In this document: one piece after another, positions 22,793 to 24,965 of the stretch
Layout of the letters: each line of letters opens with the position of its first letter
How positions within the stretch are numbered: the stretch's first letter is position 1
From: a virus
Virus record (IMG/VR): IMGVR_UViG_3300047546_000455
Coordinates: 1 to 24,965 of that record
DNA length: 24,965 nucleotides
Reading direction: 5' to 3' (one strand)
Position numbers and translations under genes: made by a program
The notes under the pieces: generated by a model
Told to the model about the DNA's origin: nothing
The model's database searches: none
Seen by the model: only the letters and a program-made list of their open reading frames with translations

Positions 22793-24965
22793 TCAGACAC
22801 GCCAGTTATGGTCCCTTCGCGGGTTAATCATGGTGGTTTGGGGGTCTGGCGGGGTCGATGCGTACCGTTTCATGACATAGGCGTACCGGGTGGCGGACAA
22901 CAGGTCGTCTTGCAGCTTGACGATAAGCCCGTCCTTGCGGTGGTACAGGCGGAACTCCGCGAACCAGTCCTCCAGCCCCCGGAACACCTTGAACTTGCCA
23001 CGCTTCATGTCGTCGAACATGAGCGTCACACCTGCTTCGACACTGGTGCGGCTGGTCTTTTTGCCTTCCTCGTCGCCCGTTTCCGGGAGCTGCGCGTATT
23101 CGTGCAGCATCTTGGCGCCGTGCGCACGGTACTGCTCGGCCAACTGGATGCCGTCACCCTTGGACCGTTGCAAACCGTCCGCCGGCCAAGCCACCGGCAC
23201 CCAGTCGCCACGCTGTTTGATCCTCGGGACAATCTGCGCCGGGGTTTCGTTGCTAACCCGGTAGGTGTCGTACACGTACACCGTGTCGGTGTCGCGGTCC
23301 CAAGCCAGCCAAGCCCCCGCGCTCGGGTGGTCGATGCCGAAGTCCACCCCACAAATGATCGGCCAATGGTCTGGAATGGGGAACGGATCGACACTGATGG
23401 CGCTTTCGGCAATCGGCCACACGCGCCCACTGCCCAAGATGGGCACGCCCTTGGCCCGTGCTTCACGCTCGTGTTCCGGGTATGAGGCAATGATGCGCTG
23501 CCGGTCTTCCTCGCTGTAGTGGCCAACATCTTCAATAGTCATGTTGGTATCTGACCGGTCGGGCGTCGGGTTTTGCAAGAACAAGCGCACGACCTCGGAC
23601 ATACCAAGCAACGGGGTGAAGGTGATCCACACAATCCCCTTGGTCGCGTTGGTCCGGGTCAGCACCTCGGTGTAAATATCACTTGGCGGTTCCTCGTCCA
23701 GTGCGGCGAAGTCCAGCGTCTCGCCTTGGAGCTTGGATCGGCCCTTTTCGTAACTCTTGAAGTACAGGCGCGATACCAAGCCGCTCACGTGCTTGACGAA
23801 AACAGCGTCCACCGAGTCGGCAACACCCTGCGCGCGTTTGATCTCAATGATGAGTTTCTCGGGGATGGTGCCAGTGCCCCACTCCCCAGGCCGGCCCAGA
23901 ACTAAGCGTTGCAGGGTGTCGCGGGTCGATTCCATGGATTCGCCCAGCGCCCAGCCCGTCACACCCCGATTCCAGCGCTTGCCACGCCACCATTCTGGAT
24001 AAAGCCCGGTGAGGTGCATGGCAATCTCGTAGGCACTGCTCCACGTCTTGCCGCAGTTGTGGTGGTATATCCCTGCCGCTTTGTAGTTGTGCGTGTCTGG
24101 CACTTGAGCGTCTACTATCGGCTGGAAACCAATAGGCAGGATTGCTATAATCTCACTATTGCCGACTAGCTTAGGGGAAGATTGTGGGAAGAATATCGCC
24201 GCTTGCCGGTCATCACGAACAAATGCTGCGGTGGAATGCCCAAGGCTTAGAGCGTCAAGAGATTGCACAAAAGCTGGGAGTGTCAAAGCACACTGTGCAG
24301 GCGTATTTGCAGCGCCGCGGCATTCGGCCGGTGACGATGCGGGGCAAGGCGCTGTTACCCCAGGCGGATAGGGTCCGTCACATGGTTGAAGTCCTGCGTA
24401 TGACGCAAGCGCAAATTGCCGCAGAGCTTGGTGTGCATTTGACAACGGTAGAACGTCTGTGTGCATCGCTGGGCCTGCAAACGATGCGAACAGGGCCGCG
24501 CGCAGCGCATGGTCATTGTCAGCGGTGGGCAGGCGGTCGAATGCTTGAAAAGCATTGGTACATTGCTGTGTTCGTGCCTCTGCATCCGTACGCGAGAAGG
24601 ACAGGGTACGTTGCAGAGCATCGTTTGGTAGCTGAAGTGATGCTAGGGCGCTATCTTGATGAATCGGAAGTTGTGGATCACATAGATAGCCACACTCAAC
24701 ACAACTGGCCTGCCAATCTTCGAGTTTTCCCCAAAAACGCAGACCACTTGAAAGCGACATTAACTGGTCGAGAGAAATATAGCCGTGTTCGGTCAATATT
24801 CGGTGACTGGACGAGCAATCGACAAAGCGACCCTGTGCCGTCACTAAACGAAACGCTGGCTCAATGCCCTTCACAAACCCGTTTAGCAGTGGAGCATCAC
24901 ATTCGTATTCACCAGCCCACGAACGAACACGCACACCTTTCTCGAAGAAAGCTATGGCGCTCAGG
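22793..24965 (-). CDS. terL: Terminase large subunit interrupted by an intein, 5' end outside the window
   Basis: The frame is open from the right edge to a TGA at 22795-22793. The last 420 residues are the C-extein, starting CGKTWSSAYEIAMHLTGLYP: the end of the Walker A P-loop of the packaging ATPase. Counting from that Cys, Walker B is LDFAALDEE (about 114-122), the coupling motif is TFTPLLG (145-151), the nuclease domain begins CGVDFGIDHPS (235-245, first acidic residue D238), and DDLLSATRYAYV (383-394) holds the last acidic pair. Everything before the Cys codon (24055-24053) is intein. A GTG at 24934 is not a real start because the frame continues upstream with intein-like sequence. The mature enzyme powers DNA translocation and cuts concatemers, so its activity must depend on intein removal. 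Confidence 0.9.
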   Translation of the reverse strand, partial: LSAIAFFEKGVRVRSWAGEYECDAPLLNGFVKGIEPAFRLVTAQGRFVDCSSSHRILTEHGYISLDQLMSLSSGLRFWGKLEDWQASCVECGYLCDPQLPIHQDSALASLQLPNDALQRTLSFSRTDAEARTQQCTNAFQAFDRLPTADNDHALRAALFASFAGPAMHTDVLPLSNAHQALRQFALASYAGLQPCDGPYPPGVTAPCPASSPAECRGAANTPAQCALTLPAFVQSLDALSLGHSTAAFVRDDRQAAIFFPQSSPKLVGNSEIIAILPIGFQPIVDAQVPDTHNYKAAGIYHHNCGKTWSSAYEIAMHLTGLYPEWWRGKRWNRGVTGWALGESMESTRDTLQRLVLGRPGEWGTGTIPEKLIIEIKRAQGVADSVDAVFVKHVSGLVSRLYFKSYEKGRSKLQGETLDFAALDEEPPSDIYTEVLTRTNATKGIVWITFTPLLGMSEVVRLFLQNPTPDRSDTNMTIEDVGHYSEEDRQRIIASYPEHEREARAKGVPILGSGRVWPIAESAISVDPFPIPDHWPIICGVDFGIDHPSAGAWLAWDRDTDTVYVYDTYRVSNETPAQIVPRIKQRGDWVPVAWPADGLQRSKGDGIQLAEQYRAHGAKMLHEYAQLPETGDEEGKKTSRTSVEAGVTLMFDDMKRGKFKVFRGLEDWFAEFRLYHRKDGLIVKLQDDLLSATRYAYVMKRYASTPPDPQTTMINPRRDHNWRV
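24123..24151 (+). promoter_or_regulatory. Extended -10 sigma70-type promoter for the antisense HNH gene
   Basis: A perfect -10 TATAAT (24146-24151) is preceded by TGC (24143-24145), forming an extended -10. A partial -35, TGGAAA (four of six to TTGACA, 24123-24128), sits at a 17-base spacing. Transcription would start near 24158, about 26 bases before the GTG. The element lies within codons of the C-terminal Hint part of the intein on the opposite strand. Confidence 0.75.
24173..24178 (+). promoter_or_regulatory. Shine-Dalgarno sequence setting the GTG start of the HNH gene
   Basis: AGGGGA (24173-24178) lies five bases before the GTG at 24184 and just overlaps an in-frame TAG (24172-24174). 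The next in-frame ATG (24223) has no such site, so the GTG is preferred. Confidence 0.7.
24184..24965 (+). CDS. HTH-HTH-HNH homing endonuclease encoded antisense to the TerL intein, 3' end outside the window
   Basis: From the GTG, 260 residues are visible with no stop. Residues 24-47 form a helix-turn-helix (RQEIAQKLGVSKHTVQAYLQ RRGI) and residues 73-98 a second (TQAQIAAELGVHLTTVERLC), probably for DNA recognition. The HNH nuclease follows: GYVAEHRLVAEVMLGRYLDE (141-160), SEVVDHIDS (161-169, catalytic-type His166), HNWPANLRVF (173-182, conserved Asn178) and HLKATLTGRE (188-197). This matches the HNH_3-type domain of phage homing endonucleases. A polar tail (198-260 and beyond) lies opposite the N-terminal Hint codons. 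The gene has its own extended -10 promoter and ribosome-binding site and is the only plus-strand gene in the window. By inference it cuts intein-free terL alleles and so drives spread of the intein. The nuclease family is sure; the homing target is inferred. Confidence 0.88.
   Translation, partial: MGRISPLAGHHEQMLRWNAQGLERQEIAQKLGVSKHTVQAYLQRRGIRPVTMRGKALLPQADRVRHMVEVLRMTQAQIAAELGVHLTTVERLCASLGLQTMRTGPRAAHGHCQRWAGGRMLEKHWYIAVFVPLHPYARRTGYVAEHRLVAEVMLGRYLDESEVVDHIDSHTQHNWPANLRVFPKNADHLKATLTGREKYSRVRSIFGDWTSNRQSDPVPSLNETLAQCPSQTRLAVEHHIRIHQPTNEHAHLSRRKLWRS

Follow-up and report, generated by a model that had tools for sequence, protein, structure and literature searches.

The TerL gene of this virus very likely carries a mobile intein with a homing endonuclease gene lying entirely inside it on the complementary strand, a reading to which we assign a probability of about 0.85. 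Both coding frames, their conservation, the empty site, a gene-conversion-like footprint and the recurrence of the arrangement are shown by sequence analysis; splicing, cleavage and antisense transcription are inferred. The window we analyzed is a whole viral contig of 24,965 bp (IMG/VR record IMGVR_UViG_3300047546_000455), and its right end cuts through the TerL gene. The minus-strand ORF at 22793-24964 reads intein sequence first, ending HHN/CGKT (the slash marks the junction), and then TerL, as identified by Pfam matches to Terminase_6N (3e-29) and Terminase_6C (2e-16). The plus-strand HNH ORF spans 260 codons from a GTG at 24184 and is truncated by the contig end. A second IMG/VR contig (L002, IMGVR_UViG_3300043395_001230) equals the window over 5,782 nt at 100% identity and extends past its end. 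There, TerL is one continuous 845-aa ORF with a 318-aa intein between RAGNQ and CGKT. Based on L002, the full intein occupies the window-equivalent positions 24056-25009 and the full HNH ORF 24184-25005 including the stop (273 aa), with both start and stop inside the intein. A first-pass annotation, made from the sequence alone, had proposed an antisense HNH gene fully within a TerL intein. This held, with the full extent supplied by L002. The interval given for the intein, 24056-24965, needs a small correction, as it stops at the contig end rather than at the intein end. Features within the window are listed in Table 1.

Table 1. Positions of the nested intein, the opposite-strand gene and associated signals in the window.
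Feature	Position	Strand	Basis and remarks
TerL C-extein	22793..24055	-	Starts CGKTWSSAYE (rest of Walker A); stop codon 22793-22795; Terminase_6N and Terminase_6C; uninterrupted homologues at 98% aa identity
Divergent, co-conversion-like tract, C-extein part (+1 to +80 relative to the insertion)	23976..24055	-	Mismatch map against intein-free L096-L099
Intein, truncated by contig end	24056..24965	-	Boundaries from L002; invariant Hint residues; PDB and fold matches to DnaB inteins
C-terminal splice junction, H-H-N codons	24056..24064	-	Sequence; H317 and N318 invariant in 41 relatives; +1 Cys at 24053-24055
Promoter-like site for the HNH gene, TGGAAA-17 bp-TATAAT	24123..24151	+	Extended -10 TGC at 24143-24145; p 0.07 for the locus alone; stronger across relatives
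Shine-Dalgarno-like AGGGGA, 5 nt upstream of the GTG	24173..24178	+	Sequence; such sites enriched before HNH starts family-wide
Putative antisense HTH-HTH-HNH homing endonuclease gene, truncated by contig end	24184..24965	+	Pfam; codon-position bias; invariant catalytic residues; AF2 mean pLDDT 84.7
First helix-turn-helix, residues 13-44	24220..24315	+	HTH_23 2.8e-10
Second helix-turn-helix, about residues 58-96	24355..24471	+	HTH_Crp_2 stretch 58-96; HTH_IclR 72-96
HNH nuclease core, residues 118-195	24535..24768	+	HNH_3; invariant columns; D165-H166 at 24676-24681, N174, N178, N185, H188

The element in TerL is an intein, as shown by its residues, its Hint fold and its absence from close relatives; that it splices is inferred. 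It interrupts the Walker A motif (RAGNQ/intein/CGKT). C1, the block B histidine (H69), H317 and N318 are invariant in the intein across 41 relatives, and the residue at +1 is C, S or T among family members. An intein profile matched DnaB inteins in the PDB at 2e-17. In the AF2 model, residues 1 to about 85 and about 280-318 form a confidently predicted Hint fold (pLDDT at least 90), and Foldseek matched this model to DnaB inteins (E 2e-6) as well as RecA mini-inteins. The linker encoded by the DNA opposite the HNH gene was mostly modeled at low confidence, with pLDDT around 40 over much of its length and some helices scoring higher. No recognizable nuclease domain was found with Pfam in the intein frame, the host ORFs of relatives having also been examined, and the first-pass claim that the intein lacks a nuclease in its own frame thus held. 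A bifunctional intein with an in-frame endonuclease was rejected because no nuclease domain lies between the Hint halves and the linker is largely disordered in the model. A split intein or fractured gene was rejected given the single TerL ORF. A group I intron at the insertion was also rejected, with no Rfam match up to E 1 (L002 4500-6300).

The HNH gene is very likely real and under selection, with nuclease activity inferred from sequence. The encoded protein matches HNH_3 (6.4e-7) and HTH domains in two stretches in Pfam, and six residues of the D-H, N, N, N, H pattern (D165, H166, N174, N178, N185 and H188) are invariant in 47 HNH proteins. The best fold match is the homing endonuclease I-HmuI, but this match is weak (E 0.42). 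The closest relatives outside the nested family are free-standing HNH genes. The free-standing HNH gene of Halobacterium phage phiH (MK002701; L088 2947-3567) is related to the nested family and could help to place its origin. A chance antisense ORF was considered and rejected on the basis of the domain matches, the invariant residues, the codon-position bias and the free-standing controls.

The same DNA is constrained on both strands, though not equally. In 57 nonredundant loci, stops across the HNH ORF were counted in the three antisense frames, giving 0 in the frame of the host and 698 and 593 in the other two. Free-standing HNH relatives (n = 6) carry 5-17 stops in the antisense frame corresponding to the host frame. 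Substitutions in the HNH core number 1736/1310/4295 at codon positions 1/2/3 (101 pairs, which are not independent), and the most substituted HNH position 3 is codon position 2 of the terminase or other host. Protein identities from the same DNA were 98% for the HNH protein versus 76% for the intein in one pair, and 91% versus 49% in another. Outside of the overlap, TerL shows the usual third-position bias. Between Amona and Sabo, both cultured Pectobacterium phages, the overlap shows 2, 15 and 3 differences at terminase codon positions 1, 2 and 3, compared to 1, 0 and 27 in the C-extein. The substitution pattern by codon position therefore indicates that the HNH frame is kept by selection on its protein and that the opposite strand mainly has to stay open. 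Some HNH copies are decayed, with two stops in L013 and an internal deletion in the HNH frame of L003, while the TerL frame remains intact. Such broken copies suggest that the HNH frame closes when selection lapses. The plus-strand frame could alternatively be a fossil or expression-silent remnant, open only because the opposite strand is coding. The broken copies in L013 and L003 and the lack of RNA data would be consistent with this. However, the codon-position bias favors the HNH frame even between closely related phages, the catalytic residues are invariant and Shine-Dalgarno sites are enriched, which makes a fossil frame very unlikely.

The HNH gene seems to be equipped with a promoter and a ribosome-binding site of its own; the evidence for the promoter is statistical, and antisense transcription is inferred. 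Shine-Dalgarno sequences of the AGGAG or GGAGG type precede about half of the HNH starts (28/57, some of them nearly identical copies), compared to 12 of 1,580 control ATGs (0.76%) on the same strand of the host gene. Scored for promoter-like sites, the region upstream of the HNH gene ranks in the top 10% of windows on its strand in 33 of 46 loci, and the distance from the -35 site to the HNH start clusters at 55-63 nt. Against a null preserving the intein protein with synonymous codons shuffled, the combined z was 7.7, the loci being related. Individually significant sites under synonymous shuffling were restricted to only 10 of 48 loci, and the site in the window itself is not among these (p 0.07). 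The promoter-like site of L080 reads TTGACA-17-TATAAT. Promoter-like and ribosome-binding sites thus precede the HNH start in many loci. In the absence of RNA evidence, they lend support to the first-pass proposal that nuclease expression does not depend on the terminase transcript.

The nested arrangement recurs widely among phages. The HNH protein was used as a query against phages and IMG/VR; the IMG/VR scans returned 256 and 300 relatives, and the best 80 of each were retrieved, yielding about 95 distinct contigs. The same nesting in the same phase was found in these approximately 95 other viral contigs, eight Pectobacterium/Dickeya phages and Pseudoalteromonas phage PHS3. All retrieved family members have the HNH ORF antisense to a long host ORF and in phase 0, meaning that codon position 1 of the HNH frame pairs with position 1 of the host, and codon position 3 with host position 2. 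Host ORFs nearly always read [HNS]HN/[CST] followed by the rest of the P-loop. The first-pass reading would have been refuted by homologous TerL inteins lacking an opposite-strand HNH frame with conserved catalytic residues, or by an absence of constraint on that frame. The frame recurs in homologous inteins, the residues are invariant and the codon-position bias reveals the constraint. Hosts of antisense-nested inteins include Terminase_6 and Terminase_3 proteins, a RecD2-like helicase (L039) and a strawberry-notch helicase (L217; Intein_splicing 6.5e-14). The two helicase hosts indicate that the common target is Walker A coding DNA and not the terminase. The antisense-nested inteins in helicase P-loops are located on the minus strand within L039 2814-5288 and L217 5-6517. 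The L039 helicase intein had no close relatives beyond itself and one distant family member. The HNH protein of L050 had no match in plasmids at E 1e-8, and a scan of genome contigs recovered one relative.

Several cultured phages carry the element without matching annotation. In the GenBank record of PHS3 (KX912252; L007 1041-3167), the terminase is annotated as truncated at 1041-2216, with the full ORF encoding 708 aa with the intein, and the annotated HNH gene is antisense within this intein-bearing terminase ORF. In the Pectobacterium phages Ymer (L006 1460-3724), Amona, Sabo and Taid, a 754-aa hypothetical protein beside the portal gene is the intein-bearing TerL, and the antisense HNH gene is unannotated in all four GenBank records. 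An apparent second intein is located elsewhere in the minus-strand TerL ORFs of L010, L013, L049, L056, L069 and L079. The second intein of L010 has a LAGLIDADG-like block in frame and is absent from the otherwise near-identical terminase of L009.

Empty sites are part of the evidence for mobility. The intein-free terminases L096-L099 are 96-98% identical to the C-extein of the window and read RAGNQ/LGKT. Compared to L096, the window has 29 mismatches from -73 to +80 around the insertion, including a Leu to Cys change at +1, and no mismatch in the flanks from -214 to -74 or +81 to +154. The resulting divergent tract of about 154 bp is centered on the insertion, and no such dip is found against more distant relatives. 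The tract likely represents the footprint expected of recent homing with co-conversion, although ordinary recombination near the site could in principle explain it and no donor was identified among the loci compared. Hint and HNH regions are about 50% identical or more in pairs whose TerL C-exteins share just 16-19% identity. With TerL controlled for, the distances of Hint and HNH still correlate (partial r 0.64). The first-pass annotation had suggested that the nuclease travels with the intein, which is supported by the correlated divergence and the co-conversion-like tract, in the absence of evidence for activity.

Two further explanations for the nested gene bear on this interpretation. The HNH gene might be an independent homing gene using the intein linker as a safe site, with a target elsewhere and without mobilizing the intein. 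The nearest outside relatives being free-standing HNH genes and the lack of a mapped cleavage site are compatible with such a scenario. However, all family members are found within inteins, and both the type of site and the phase are shared throughout. Hint and HNH also diverge together, the divergent tract is centered on the intein insertion, and intein-free terminases of 98% identity exist. Hence, we consider an independent homing gene unlikely. The HNH protein might also be a packaging-associated nuclease working with TerL and nested in the intein by accident. HNH genes beside terminases are common in phages, and most hosts in the nested family are terminases. This explanation is very unlikely, though, given that near-identical terminases lack the intein and hence the nested gene, that the same element occupies RecD2-like and strawberry-notch helicases, and that some HNH copies decay while TerL stays intact.

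We favor the mobile intein with an antisense homing gene and propose the following mechanism. The Hint halves would fold across the floppy linker, splice the intein out and restore the TerL ATPase. The plus strand of the linker DNA encodes the two-HTH HNH nuclease, which would be made from its own promoter. In mixed infections, a related co-infecting phage without the intein would have its Walker A coding DNA cut by the nuclease. Repair from the intein-bearing copy would then carry the intein across, together with the nuclease gene and flanking DNA. A bolder reading, which we regard as likely, is that these loci represent a widespread class of mobile inteins invading the Walker A motif of unrelated P-loop ATPases. 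In this class, the same base pairs would encode the splicing element on one strand and the homing endonuclease, as a separate protein, on the other, in one fixed phase. The antisense promoter would lie within the sequence coding for the C-terminal splicing region.

The nested inteins share features with several known systems. Bifunctional inteins with in-frame LAGLIDADG or HNH endonucleases similarly have a Hint domain, a conserved-motif site, homing and an endonuclease between the Hint halves. In the nested family, by contrast, the nuclease is a separate opposite-strand protein with its own start and Shine-Dalgarno sequence, and the in-frame linker is predicted to be largely disordered. The TerL intein of mycobacteriophage Thibault, used as a control, has a LAGLIDADG in frame and no antisense HNH, and represents the ordinary bifunctional case. 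The nuclear group I introns Dir.S956-2 and Dsq.L2066 contain antisense homing endonuclease genes suspected to have their own promoter (PMC9548176). As in the nested inteins, the homing gene is antisense inside a mobile element, with a shared risk of antisense interference with the host transcript. However, the host strand in these introns is a peripheral intron segment removed by RNA splicing and need not code for protein. In the nested intein, the host strand has to remain an uninterrupted reading frame in a single fixed phase, with the same bases coding for two proteins. In the split inteins of fractured genes, the two halves are reported to flank a free-standing endonuclease (Dassa et al. 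2009). There, too, the nuclease is translated as a separate protein within the intein locus, but the host gene is broken in two, whereas the host of a nested intein is one continuous ORF. HNH homing endonucleases similar to I-HmuI share the HNH core and HTH DNA-binding parts, consistent with the weak structural match, but the nested family has two N-terminal HTHs and is carried by an intein instead of a group I intron. The first-pass annotation had suggested a distinct architecture. In the open-access literature searched, we found antisense homing genes described only for group I introns and none reported within an intein. Inteins, HNH homing nucleases and antisense homing genes in introns are each already known, and the novelty lies in a highly unusual intein architecture.

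The nested inteins are an example of dual-coded DNA, where one strand encodes a splicing protein and the other would encode the enzyme spreading that splicing protein. They are also an instance of long genes overlapping in antisense in phages, where there is clear evidence that selection acts on the nuclease frame and that the opposite frame is forced to stay open. Nested inteins are largely unannotated in GenBank, and the existence of examples in cultured phages makes expression, splicing and homing directly testable. Possible tools include linker-tolerant Hint domains and HNH enzymes that may cut Walker A coding DNA. If the proposed reading is true, the nuclease would depend neither on late transcription of the terminase nor on folding within the host precursor, and would still move together with the intein as one unit.
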